From Verrucomicrobiota bacterium (GTDB lineage Bacteria > Verrucomicrobiota > Verrucomicrobiia > Verrucomicrobiales > Verrucomicrobiaceae): a stretch of DNA of 64,000 nucleotides. The DNA lies in NCBI GenBank assembly GCA_025360015.1, contig JANYCZ010000003.1, positions 62,001-126,000 on the forward strand, in the 5' to 3' direction. The notes beneath the pieces are model-generated. The model ran no database searches. It was not told where the DNA came from and was given only the letters and a program-made list of their open reading frames with translations. This document shows positions 44,628 to 48,567 of the stretch, in pieces. The translations under genes were made by a program, and so were the position numbers. Position 1 is the first letter of the stretch; each line of letters begins with the position of its first letter.

Positions 44628-45149
44628 ATGAGCACCACCTCCGCCAGCAAGCCCCTCGTGGGCATCATCATGGGCTCCAGTTCCGACTGGCCCACCCTCC
44701 AAAATGCCGCCCAGGTGCTCAAGGACTTCGGCATCCCATTTGAAAAAAGAGTCGTCAGCGCCCACCGCACGCCTCAGCTTCTTTACGATTACGCCACCAC
44801 CGCCTCGGAGCGTGGCCTCAAATGCATCATCGCCGGTGCCGGCGGTGCCGCCCACCTGCCGGGCATGACCGCCAGCATGACCACCATCCCCGTGCTTGGC
44901 GTCCCGGTGCAAAGCCGTGCACTCAGTGGCGTGGACAGCCTCTACTCCATCGTGCAAATGCCCGGCGGCATCCCCGTCGCCACCTTTGCCATTGGCAATG
45001 CAGGCGCTTTGAACGCCGGACTCTTCGCCGTCTCCATGCTCGCAAACGACAATCCCGAACTCGTCGCCAAGCTGAAGACCTTCCGCGAACGGCAAACGCA
45101 AAAGGTCCTCGAAAGCCAGCAGGAAATCGAAGCCGAACCGAAGGCATGA
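44628..45149 (+). CDS. purE: N5-carboxyaminoimidazole ribonucleotide mutase
   Basis: A 173-residue protein with the class I PurE signature [20 protein letters not shown], then [17 protein letters not shown] and [17 protein letters not shown], and [33 protein letters not shown]. PurE moves the carboxyl group of N5-CAIR to make CAIR in purine synthesis. Its stop overlaps the purK ATG by 4 bp, so the two enzymes of this step are translationally coupled. Confidence 0.97.
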
Positions 45150-46291
45150 AGTTTCCCCCTCCTTCGACCATCGGCGTCCTCGGCGGCGGCCAGCTCGGCC
45201 GCATGCTCGCCCTCGAAGCCCGTCGCGCAGGCCATCGCATCGTCATCTTGACCGACGAGCCCCAGGGCTGTCCTGCCGGTCAGTTTGCCGACATCGAAAT
45301 CAACGCCGCCTACGATGACGCGGCAGCCTTGAACAACTTCCTGCAGCAGGTCGATGTCGTCACCGCCGAGTTCGAAAACATCCCCGCCGCCTGCCTCGCC
45401 GCCGTCGAGGCCGTCAAGCCCCTGCGCCCCGGTGCCAAGGCCCTCATCACCACCCAGCATCGCGAGCGCGAAAAGAACTTCCTGCGGGATCAAGGCATCG
45501 CCTGCGCGCCCTTCCGTGTCGTCGATGACCTCGCCGGACTCGAAGCCGCCGTGGCCGAGCTCGGCCGCCCCTGCGTCATCAAAACCGCCGCCTTCGGCTA
45601 CGACGGCAAGGGCCAGTGCAAGGTCACCACAGAGACCAATCTCGCCGAAGCCTGGAGCGGCTTCACCGGCCAGCGCGCCGTCGTCGAGCAATGGGTCACC
45701 TTCGTCTGCGAAGTCTCCGTCGTCGGCGCCCGCAGCATCGACGGTAGCATGGCCACCCACGGCTGCGTCGAAAACCAGCACACGCATCACATCCTCGATG
45801 TCACCATCGCACCTGCACGCGTGGAGCCGCACATTGTTGCACAAGCCATCGCATTGTGGCAGGCCGTCGCCGAAGGCCTCGACTACGTCGGCACCATGGC
45901 CGTCGAAATGTTCGTCACCAGCGACGGCAAAGTCATCGTCAACGAGATCGCCCCGCGTCCGCACAACAGCGGCCACTACACCATCGACGCCTGCCGCACC
46001 AACCAGTTCCAGCAGCAGCAGCGCGCCATCTGCGGCCTCCCCCTCGGCGATGCCTCCCAGCACACCCCCGCCGTCATGATCAATCTCCTCGGCGACGTCT
46101 GGCCCGCCCCGCTCACGCACCCCGACTGGTCCCCCGTCCTCAATCATCCCCGCGCCAAACTCCACCTCTACGGCAAACGCGAAGCCCGCCCCCGCCGCAA
46201 AATGGGCCACTTCACCGTCCTCGGCGACACCATCGATCAGGCGCTCAAGGACGCGCTCGCAATTCGCAAGGCATTGGGGATCGGTGAATAA
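45146..46291 (+). CDS. purK: N5-carboxyaminoimidazole ribonucleotide synthase
   Basis: A 381-residue ATP-grasp enzyme that carboxylates AIR using ATP and bicarbonate. It begins with [20 protein letters not shown] and includes [47 protein letters not shown] and the metal-binding [20 protein letters not shown]. The start at 45146 follows the 4-bp overlap with purE; the much longer open frame upstream of it is a shadow of purE. Downstream lies the first 166-bp repeat of the RAYT element. Confidence 0.97.
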
Positions 46292-46315
46292 CGAATGCTG
46301 CCACGCACTCGCGGG

Positions 46316-46481
46316 CGCGACAGCGTCGTGGAGTGCGGTGGGAAGCGAAGCGCCACACCGCTTTCGAACCGGTGAAGAACGCGCAAAGTCCACAGAGCAT
46401 TCGTCCGGCTGGCGAAAGCGGTGTCGCCGATGCAGGCTTGCGCCATGCATCTCTGCCACCGCACTCCACGACGCTGTCGCG
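46316..46481. repeat. 166-bp palindromic element, left copy
   Basis: It starts and ends with a perfect 26-bp inverted repeat (46316-46341 and 46456-46481). Inside, a second pair of arms, ACACCGCTTTCG and CGAAAGCGGTGT, gives a nested hairpin. The same element recurs at 47091-47256, differing at only two adjacent bases. It resembles a large REP/MITE-like unit. Frames across it read the same peptide in both copies and are not real genes. Confidence 0.92.
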
Positions 46482-46517
46482 CTTGCTTCACGCCAGATCA
46501 TTTCGTAGCGTCAGACA

Positions 46518-47087
46518 ATGCATCCTGATGAAGACCTGAAGCTCGCATGGCCTCATGCACCGCTCCATCGGCTGGGAACTCACGGCATCTATTTTGTCAC
46601 GGCAGGTACTTATTTGAAAGAGCATTATTTCCGTGGTGCCGAGCGCCTTGCAGTGCTGCATCGCGGACTCCTAAAAGTCTGCGCTGATTTCGGCTGGCGT
46701 TTGGAAGCATGGGCGGTGTTTTCCAATCACTATCACTTCATCGCAGAATCACCGGAAACCGCGGAAGACCTGCCCAAAATGTTGGGATCACTGCATGAGA
46801 AAACAGCCAAGTGGGTAAACAAACTCGACCGAGCCATTGGAAGAAAGGTATGGCACAACTACCGCGAAACCCTGCTCACGTATGAACGCTCGTATTTCGC
46901 ACGGTTAAACTATACCCATCAGAATCCGGTTAAGCATGGCCTGGTTTCGAAAGCAGCCGATTACCCATGGTGCTCCGCAGCCTGGTTCGAGAGCCACACC
47001 AGCAAGCCAATGGTCGAATCCATCTATCGCTTCAAAACACAGCGCATCCAAATTCCAGACGACTACGAGGTTTGCACAGAGTGGTGA
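46518..47087 (+). CDS. REP-associated tyrosine transposase (RAYT)
   Basis: A 189-residue HUH-family protein: GIYFVTAGTYLKEHYFRG near the N-terminus, the metal-binding HYH in AVFSNHYHFIAESPE (about residues 73-87), and the catalytic-tyrosine helix YFARLNYTHQNPVKHGLVSK typical of RAYTs, followed by YPWCSAAWF. RAYTs cut and join single-stranded DNA at REP palindromes. It is clearly a different subgroup from the 154-residue IS200-like protein at 21 kb. It appears intact, and a 166-bp palindromic element flanks it on each side. Confidence 0.92.
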   Translation: MHPDEDLKLAWPHAPLHRLGTHGIYFVTAGTYLKEHYFRGAERLAVLHRGLLKVCADFGWRLEAWAVFSNHYHFIAESPETAEDLPKMLGSLHEKTAKWVNKLDRAIGRKVWHNYRETLLTYERSYFARLNYTHQNPVKHGLVSKAADYPWCSAAWFESHTSKPMVESIYRFKTQRIQIPDDYEVCTEW

Positions 47088-47090
47088 AAA

Positions 47091-47256
47091 CGCGACAGCG
47101 TCGTGGAGTGCGGTGGGAAGCGAAGCGCCACACCGCTTTCGAACCGGTGAAGAACGCGCAAAGTCCACAGAGCATTCGTCCGGCTGGCGAAAGCGGTGTC
47201 GCCGATGCAGGCTTGCGCCTCGCATCTCTGCCACCGCACTCCACGACGCTGTCGCG
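47091..47256. repeat. 166-bp palindromic element, right copy
   Basis: Direct repeat of 46316-46481 with the same 26-bp terminal inverted repeats (47091-47116 and 47231-47256). The only differences are two adjacent bases in the right half (TC instead of AT after GCTTGCGCC/GCTTGCGCCA). It begins three bases past the RAYT stop codon. Confidence 0.92.
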
Positions 47257-47283
47257 CACTCGCATGCGTCATCCCGCGCTCGC

Positions 47284-48462
47284 TTACACCTTCACCCACC
47301 CCTTCGACTCGCTGCTCTCCAAAATCGCCTCGCACAACTTGATCTCGTGGTGCCCGTCCTCGGCCGTCGCAAACAGCGCTGGCGTCTGCTTGCCGCTGGC
47401 GATGTGCTCATACACCGCACGATACTGCATCTTGTGCGCATCATTGAAACCTTCGGCGTGGCCGGGGGGATAGTCGGTGTAGTTGGCGACGTCTTCGAGG
47501 AATCCGGGTGTGCCGCGGTGCAGGATTTGATTCGGTTCATCGCGGTGGCCGAGCAGGATTTCGTTCGGCTGGTCCAGGTCCCAGCGCACGCTGCCCTTCG
47601 TCCCGTAGATGCCGAAGCCGAGGCTGCACTTCCGACCGGCGGCGACTTGGGAGATGAATGCATTGGCATGCACTCCTTCGGCATAGCCATGCTTCGCCTT
47701 GCCAAACTTCAGCAGCACGCTGCCGAAGTCTTCGGTATCGACCTTGTAGTCGATCATCTTCTTGGGATCCACCTTGGCAAAAGTCTTCACCTCGCCTTTC
47801 GGGCGTTTGCGGGTTTTGTAGAAGGTCTCGATATGGGCGAAGACACTCTCCGTCTTGGTGCCGAGCACGAAGCCCACGGCGTCGATCCAGTGCGTGCCCA
47901 CATCGCCCACGGCGCGCAGCTTGCCGCCTTCGGATGCAAGGATGCGCCAGTTGTAGTCGGTCTCGTGCAGCAACCAGTCCTGGAAGAAATGACCTTGGAC
48001 GTGGATGATCTTTCCGAGGTCGCCACGCGCCACCATGGCGCGCATTTGCAGGATGGCCGGGATGAAGCGGCACATGTAGTTCACGGCAAAAACGGGGCCG
48101 CGTTTGCCGCCGCGTTTCACCGCAGCGACGACCCGTGCCGTGTCCTGCGTCGTCATGCCCAGCGGCTTCTCGCAGATGACGTGCTTGCCCATCTCCAGCG
48201 CATGCAGGCACTGCTCCACGTGCACCTTGTTCGGCGAGGTGATGTGCACCACGTCGATGTTCGGGCTGGTGTACATCGCCTCATAATCGTAGTCGCCGTA
48301 GATTTCTGGGATGCCCCAGAGGTTGCCGACCTCGCGTGCGCTTTTGGTCGAGCCGCAGATGCCGTTCACGGTGACGCCGAGCCGTTTAAGTGCCTCAATA
48401 TGAACGGGTCCGATGAAGCCGGTGCCGATGATGCCGGCGCGAAGTTGATGAAGGGGTGTCAT
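47284..48462 (-). CDS. Gfo/Idh/MocA family oxidoreductase (cytoplasmic)
   Basis: A 392-residue protein. It has the Rossmann motif AGIIGTGFIGPVHIEAL at the N-terminus, VVHITSPNKVHVEQCLHALE and the catalytic-lysine motif VICEKPLGMTTQDT. The C-terminal part includes GGKLRAVGDVGTHWIDAVGF, in which the H/D pair may act on the sugar. No Tat or Sec signal is present, unlike the paralogue near 1.4 kb. It probably oxidises or reduces a sugar or inositol-type substrate. The start at 48462 precedes the conserved region; ATG 48498 would add 12 unconserved residues. Its 3' end lies 27 bp from the right palindromic element. Confidence 0.92.
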   Translation of the reverse strand: MTPLHQLRAGIIGTGFIGPVHIEALKRLGVTVNGICGSTKSAREVGNLWGIPEIYGDYDYEAMYTSPNIDVVHITSPNKVHVEQCLHALEMGKHVICEKPLGMTTQDTARVVAAVKRGGKRGPVFAVNYMCRFIPAILQMRAMVARGDLGKIIHVQGHFFQDWLLHETDYNWRILASEGGKLRAVGDVGTHWIDAVGFVLGTKTESVFAHIETFYKTRKRPKGEVKTFAKVDPKKMIDYKVDTEDFGSVLLKFGKAKHGYAEGVHANAFISQVAAGRKCSLGFGIYGTKGSVRWDLDQPNEILLGHRDEPNQILHRGTPGFLEDVANYTDYPPGHAEGFNDAHKMQYRAVYEHIASGKQTPALFATAEDGHHEIKLCEAILESSESKGWVKV

Positions 48463-48567
48463 GCAGATGCAGTGAAGCGTGACGGGAGGAATGGTCAATG
48501 CGGCAAAGCCCCTGCTGCATGATTTGCTGGATCATCCTGCGTTCTTAAGGATACTCAGCGCTTCTCC

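Follow-up and report, generated by a model that had tools for sequence, protein, structure and literature searches.

How do two nearly identical elements of 166 bp come to enclose a small transposase gene between purK and an oxidoreductase gene in a relative of Prosthecobacter (Verrucomicrobiota), and what are these elements? The window studied here, a stretch of 64,000 nucleotides, carries this arrangement at positions 46316-47256. The initial annotation ascribed the gene to the REP-associated tyrosine transposases (RAYT), regarded the elements as MITE-like units too large for ordinary REPs, and took their near identity as a sign of either recent movement or concerted evolution. Our work supports the idea that the elements and the RAYT very probably belong together as a REPIN-RAYT (REPtron) system.

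Results

The gene between the elements (46518-47087, forward strand) encodes a TnpAREP-like Y1 HUH protein of 189 amino acids. It scores 85.2 bits on the NCBIfam model NF047646 (REP-associated tyrosine transposase; cut-off 80), matches the Pfam family PF01797 (Y1_Tnp), and finds the TnpAREP structure 4er8 with an E value of 9.8e-7. Residues 71-73 read HYH, and in the alignment Tyr132 lies opposite Tyr115 of 4er8; the Y115F variant of TnpAREP has been termed a catalytic mutant (PMC8266576). Judged from these matches, the protein belongs to the REP-associated Y1 HUH group, as had been annotated. Its left neighbour is purK (45146-46291, forward strand, start codon chosen by us), the anchor of the syntenic site, and its right neighbour is a gene of the GFO/IDH/MocA oxidoreductase family (47284-48498, reverse strand) for which no NCBIfam equivalog exceeds its cut-off. 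The window RAYT is present in a single copy in its genome (G000), and the nearest paralogue is 63% identical. For an IS200/IS605 insertion sequence, several recent whole-unit copies would be expected, and this candidate was rejected. The paralogue (L032; G000:C59:93108-93644) is bordered on one side by a minimal REP, of which G000 contains five copies at up to three mismatches, and represents a second, sparse REP system. There are 24 RAYT-like matches in G000 (e. g. C49:123191-123760 and C42:145299-145865), and several of them lie in open frames of about 390 amino acids in which the profile matches two separated stretches.

The two elements occupy positions 46316-46481 and 47091-47256, at distances of 36 bp and 3 bp from the RAYT, respectively, and are direct repeats on the forward strand: They agree at 164 of 166 positions, and the two differences are adjacent (positions 130 and 131). 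Their inverted ends are perfect over 26-27 nt. The size of the elements, their agreement at 164 positions, their 26-bp ends, and their distances from the gene had been described correctly; the inner stem, given as 12 bp, was seen as 15 nt at 93%. Each element consists of two arms in inverted orientation. In the left one, arm 1 (46316-46364, forward strand) is composed of 14 nt, the foot GGAG, a T, the stem half GCGGTG, a loop of 15 nt, the stem half CACCGC and TTT. Arm 2 (46415-46481, reverse strand) follows the same layout, with the same foot and stem and a loop of 33 nt in which a further stem, GATGCA/TGCATC, is nested, and a spacer of 50 nt (46365-46414) separates the arms. In predicted single-stranded DNA folding, the left element (folded one base off, at 46317-46482) reaches -65 kcal/mol (z -8.9) and the right element -69 kcal/mol (z -9.9), and none of 200 shuffles reached either value. 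Among 69 arms of G000, conservation sets in sharply at CGCGACAGCG (also written CGCGACAG), which corresponds to position 46316. Since conservation jumps at 46316 in 69 arms, the edges of the element are real. No RNA family was found by Rfam at the gathering cut-off in 46200-47400, and the idea that the elements might be members of such a family was dropped.

The stem class GCGG[TC]G/C[AG]CCGC was represented by 114 distinct arms from the loci collected. Their loops fall into lengths of 5-7 nt (33 arms), 15-17 nt (37), 23 nt (7), and 32-34 nt (37). A perfect nested stem of 6 bp is present in 34 of the 37 long loops; it is GATGCA/TGCATC in 33 of them and GAGGCA/TGCCTC, with both halves changed, in one. 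In strict REPs, the hairpin has a CT at its 3' base (GC-TTT, with the TTT being part of the search rule). Each 166-bp element is best read as a REPIN, i. e. as two inverted REPs with a spacer. Their mobile-like character has stood, but each of them is neither a single oversized REP nor an ordinary MITE: They are REP doublets, and REPINs have already been described in Pseudomonas fluorescens SBW25, where they were modelled as segments of 71 and 110 bp (PMC3116915).

The search of the genome for further copies, as proposed in the initial annotation, yielded 57 arms in the 6.6 Mb of G000 (20-nt arm pattern, up to three mismatches) vs. none for the reversed control pattern; the element is thus not confined to this locus. 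Paired elements are present in 23 of 37 loci examined, which contain 24 pairs, two of them in the window locus. The inner span is 153-158 bp in 20 of the 24 pairs and 119, 148, 216, and 221 bp in the remaining four, and single arms occur at further places of G000. The scattered copies may have been mobilised by the window RAYT. Against such an origin, the full-length copies are at most 81% identical to the window pair, and most of them differ from it in the left loop and in the spacer, which resembles, by eye, the inverted window spacer. The right arm alone reaches 97% identity over 70 nt, and in one copy (L003) a window-type left arm is joined to a scattered-type spacer. In the right element of L157 and at the right end of L030, an arm of an otherwise normal element contains an extra module of about 50-60 nt, which could be another insert or a nested repeat.

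Outside the window unit, 28 copy loci (L003-L030) were searched together with flanks of up to 1.5 kb, and no RAYT match (E up to 1) was detected in them. This finding, together with the perfect 26-bp inverted ends and the uniform length, would suit MITEs that belong to an unrelated DDE (cut-and-paste) transposon and flank the RAYT by chance. However, a comparison of 24 elements with shuffled pairs, made at six offsets, gave no target-site duplication above chance, and we have rejected DDE MITEs for this reason. A chance association is moreover at odds with the presence of elements of the same type beside RAYTs in relatives that are at least 65% identical, of the foot and hairpin beside more distant RAYTs, and of a minimal REP even beside the 63% paralogue; we thus regard this explanation as extremely improbable.

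The linkage of foot and hairpin to RAYTs was studied in 43 RAYT loci of 38-100% identity. These are the best matches rather than all RAYT matches, and near relatives remain among them; L098 and L099 (the records of L069 and L071) and the exact duplicate L112 were excluded, and L074 contributes just 43 bases on the right. The motif GGA[GC][TC]GC[GT] has a density of 6.86 per kb within 250 bp of the RAYT vs. 0.36 per kb farther away, and it occurs on both sides of the gene in 37 of the 43 loci. With a strict rule (foot, stem of at least 6, and TTT) that had been devised after viewing the same flanks, there were 93 occurrences near and 6 far, on both sides in 25 of the 43 loci, with 20 combinations of foot and stem. 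The test was repeated blind to the foot, i. e. without foot or TTT, by collecting hairpins with a 6-bp stem and recording the tetranucleotide one base before it. Counted on both strands, 456 such hairpins lie in the 21 kb near the genes and 1004 in the 80 kb farther away. The near and far counts were 67 and 10 for GGAG, 35 and 3 for GGAC, 1 and 3 for GTAG, and 5 and 1 for GTGG; GGAG and GGAC together precede 102 hairpins near the 43 genes and 13 far from them. The foot of these loci is not the typical GT[AG]G: GTAG and GTGG at gaps of 0-2 were counted 11 times near and 19 times far. The stems GCGCTGG/CCAGCGC, GCTCCAG/CTGGAGC, and GCGGCAG/CTGCCGC are unlike in sequence, and all of them pair. 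That the stems vary and still pair supports the idea that selection acts on the hairpin.

In 23 of 37 RAYT loci, the two flanks share a direct repeat that is 100 nt or longer and at least 70% identical (counted with no shuffled control; L081, L082, L085, L088, L089, and L116 of the 43 were omitted). A strong repeat of this kind is missing in 14 of the 37 loci, including G023 (66%), G031 (69%), and L103, in which the best match between the flanks is inverted. In the locus L100 (5581-5900), a REP arm recurs downstream of the RAYT every 140 bases (R+14, R+154, R+294), which looks like a tandem array. The labels of the named RAYT relatives (19 loci) are mostly Prosthecobacter or other Verrucomicrobia; single ones are labelled Hydrogenedentes, Acidiferrum, and Anaerolineales.

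The order purK, element, RAYT, element, GFO/IDH gene is common to G000, G023, and G031, the last of which is placed in the genus of G000. In G031, the RAYT (L160, 1690-2256) contains two stop codons, and the left element has both arms while the right one is devoid of the second arm; in G023, both elements are reversed relative to the RAYT. The RAYT of G000 shares 78-80% nucleotide identity with those of G023 and G031, with dS values of 2.0 and 1.4, which are near saturation, and a dN of 0.08. The dN/dS ratios are 0.04-0.06 for G000 against G023, G031, and G013, and 0.09 for G023 against G013, and as far as substitution rates can tell, they show that the RAYT is under purifying selection. Identity within the flanking pair amounts to 99% in G000 vs. 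about 64% in G023 and in G031, the latter identities being rough because the elements are near-palindromes of unequal length and the right copy of G031 was cut at a fixed 166 bases. The pair of G000 is 62-80% identical to the elements of G023 and G031. Since the same site is occupied in two other species at a dS above 1, the unit at purK is old, which makes homogenisation a better explanation for the near-identical pair than a recent jump. Provided that the two elements have the age of the site, the lineage of G000 must have seen either their homogenisation or a replacement on both sides. Of the two processes considered for this near identity in the initial annotation, concerted evolution was upheld and recent movement was not.

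Conceivably, element, RAYT, and element could form a composite transposon and have moved together not long ago, as the near-identical flanking copies might suggest; moreover, in G013, a RAYT that is 87% identical has no purK in the 347 bases on its left, and purK is located on another contig. We nevertheless consider a composite transposon very unlikely: The site is shared by three species at a dS above 1, the window RAYT has one copy in the genome with the next relative at 63%, and REPtrons reportedly do not appear to transpose as a unit (PMC6006769). It was the synteny in G000, G023, and G031 that led us to reject a recent jump.

Two genomes retain the site in another state. In G002, purK is directly followed by a lone element that is 80% identical to the G000 pair, and in G012 a lone element is located directly before the GFO/IDH gene (72%). 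Both solo elements look like scars. By eye, the outer left flank of the G002 element resembles that of the left copy of G031 and the outer right flank that of the right copy of G000, and such mixed flanks are expected if recombination between the copies removed the gene. In a purK tree, G002 is placed between G000 and a group of seven genomes with G012, G023, and G031 (96/92, 99/98); the tree is based on one gene, has a rough and unsettled bootstrap, and leaves 10 of its 15 inner branches open. This position of G002 favours a loss of the RAYT in G002 and G012 over the alternative, an older lone element at purK with later acquisition of the RAYT. In six relatives with purK next to the GFO/IDH gene, no element was detected there by blast. 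The initial annotation had proposed to look for genomes that lack the unit at purK. It is indeed missing there in some relatives, but the exact insertion boundaries hoped for were not obtained: RAYT-less relatives hold other sequence in the gap, and an exact empty site was not found. The content of this gap (L121, L123, L125-L129) differs widely among the species, which makes it a variable spot beside a conserved gene, and part of it resembles, by eye, small toxin-antitoxin genes.

The turnover of scattered copies was followed at two intergenic sites of G000. For each of them, 20 of 30 retrieved loci were compared, which represent G000 and 19 relatives. Both neighbours of the L017 site are present in 10 relatives; a related element is present in G021 and none was detected by blast in the other nine, with a gap of 34 bp in G004 vs. 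224 bp in G000. Decayed pieces of arms were seen by eye at this site in G001 and G023, and part of the absence is therefore a loss rather than an empty target. At the L011 site, an element is present at 83-84% in G013 and G001, and none was detected in the other ten of the 12 relatives with both neighbours; among these ten, the gaps are 86-140 bp in G004, G008, G067, G015, and G023 vs. 469 bp in G000. Neither site yielded a clean insertion point, since the differences between the gaps go beyond the element. The copy number may follow the RAYT in part: Among 35 genomes of the genus, the median number of arms is 27.5 in the ten with a RAYT of at least 65% identity vs. 4 in the 25 others (Mann-Whitney p 0.0026; medians taken by hand, kinship and completeness ignored). 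G056-G068, 13 genomes for which there was no RAYT search, are not part of this comparison. Counter-examples to the association are G005, G012, G002, G001, G018, and G030. G005 has 90 arms, yet just a 50% RAYT relative, and many arms are found without a close RAYT in G030 (26), G018 (26), and G034 (12). In other bacteria, such a pattern has been explained by RAYT loss or orthoswitch (PMC3686654).

The persistence of copies in genomes without a close RAYT might also indicate that the repeats are mainly intergenic transcription terminators or hairpins that stabilise mRNAs, with the link to the RAYT being historical. The strong predicted folding fits this possibility, as does the finding that 13 of 19 places are free of listed gene-like ORFs across the element, judged on stop-to-stop ORFs and not by a gene finder; at the other six (L005, L007, L009, L012, L013, L018), such an ORF overlaps it. 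However, termination alone leaves the presence or absence of elements in the orthologous gaps and the tight linkage to the RAYT unexplained. We consider such a main function unlikely, and it is compatible with a REPIN-RAYT system.

Discussion

The closest known systems resemble the one studied here in different respects. Like the REPINs of P. fluorescens SBW25 (PMC3116915), the elements are dispersed, RAYT-linked, and hairpin-forming, and they consist of two inverted REPs and a spacer. They differ from them in their length of 166 bp, their larger loops, and a different foot, outside of which 14 bases are conserved. With the REPtrons, TIRtrons, and TIRYT (PMC3733652), they share a RAYT that is flanked by REPs or long repeats, and families of moderate abundance. 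The same paper describes the verrucomicrobium O. terrae as highly enriched in GTAG repeats. In contrast to the REPtrons and TIRtrons, the long unit resolves here into REPs with hairpin and a GGAG or GGAC foot, and the flanks are direct repeats of the whole doublet. A TIRtron, with long inverted flanks unrelated to REPs, was rejected since the ends are arms with foot and hairpin. Two features recall the orthoswitch (PMC3686654): A syntenic RAYT has flanking repeats that differ from the scattered copies, and copies outlast a lost RAYT. Unlike in Pseudomonas and Stenotrophomonas, the whole 166-bp pair has changed together here; the authors of that work can only speculate about the mechanism of orthoswitch. 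Finally, the Y1 HUH protein, the tetranucleotide 5' of the hairpin, and the CT beside the REP are shared with TnpAREP/REP of E. coli and other bacteria (PMC8266576, PMC6006769), whereas the foot is GGA[GC] here and GT[AG]G in the typical classes.

The foot GGAG/GGAC and the enlarged, variable loops in one stem class are the differences from described REPs. Since two atypical classes have feet other than GT[AG]G (PMC6006769), we regard the system as a variant of REPIN-RAYT and not as a separate one. In the main text of that paper, the string 'Verrucomicrobi' is absent. In the open literature searched (supplementary files aside), we found no paper on repetitive extragenic palindromic sequences in Prosthecobacter and nothing on RAYT or REP-associated tyrosine transposase with GGAG. 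Among the matches listed for 'Verrucomicrobi' with RAYT, PMC3733652 alone was clearly relevant by title and abstract.

From the data we infer a mechanism for recognition, cutting, and mobilisation, and for homogenisation and loss. In a single-stranded region, each element would fold into a long hairpin of two inverted REPs. The RAYT, as a putative Y1 HUH single-strand endonuclease, may recognise the GGAG foot together with the GCGGTG/CACCGC hairpin; TnpAREP binds the hairpin in single-stranded form, and the foot contributes to the choice of the cut (PMC8266576). The RAYT would then cut beside the REP, possibly at the CT of the hairpin's 3' base, and transfer the doublet, by moving or copying it, to further intergenic sites that are single-stranded, with no duplication of the target site. 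The RAYT gene and its two directly repeated REPINs would stay in place and be inherited vertically. Now and then, gene conversion or unequal recombination may homogenise the flanking pair, and recombination between the two REPINs could remove the gene, with a solo element left behind.

It is tempting to speculate beyond this scheme, although we see the following idea as rather improbable in its entirety: a REPIN-RAYT lineage guided by GGAG/GGAC might be widespread in the Verrucomicrobiota, with a conserved stem and interchangeable apical modules (5-7, 15-17, 23, and 32-34 nt). The flanking REPINs would be a co-converting master pair that establishes a new variant on both sides at once and thereby drives a switch of the genomic repeat population.

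The findings extend REPIN-RAYT biology in detail to the Verrucomicrobiota. The naturally occurring feet (GGAG, GGAC) and stems form a series that provides material for testing the proposed guide rule of RAYTs, and the purK site, with its intact, broken, and solo states and a pair that is 99% identical in one of them, gives a view of flank homogenisation and RAYT loss.
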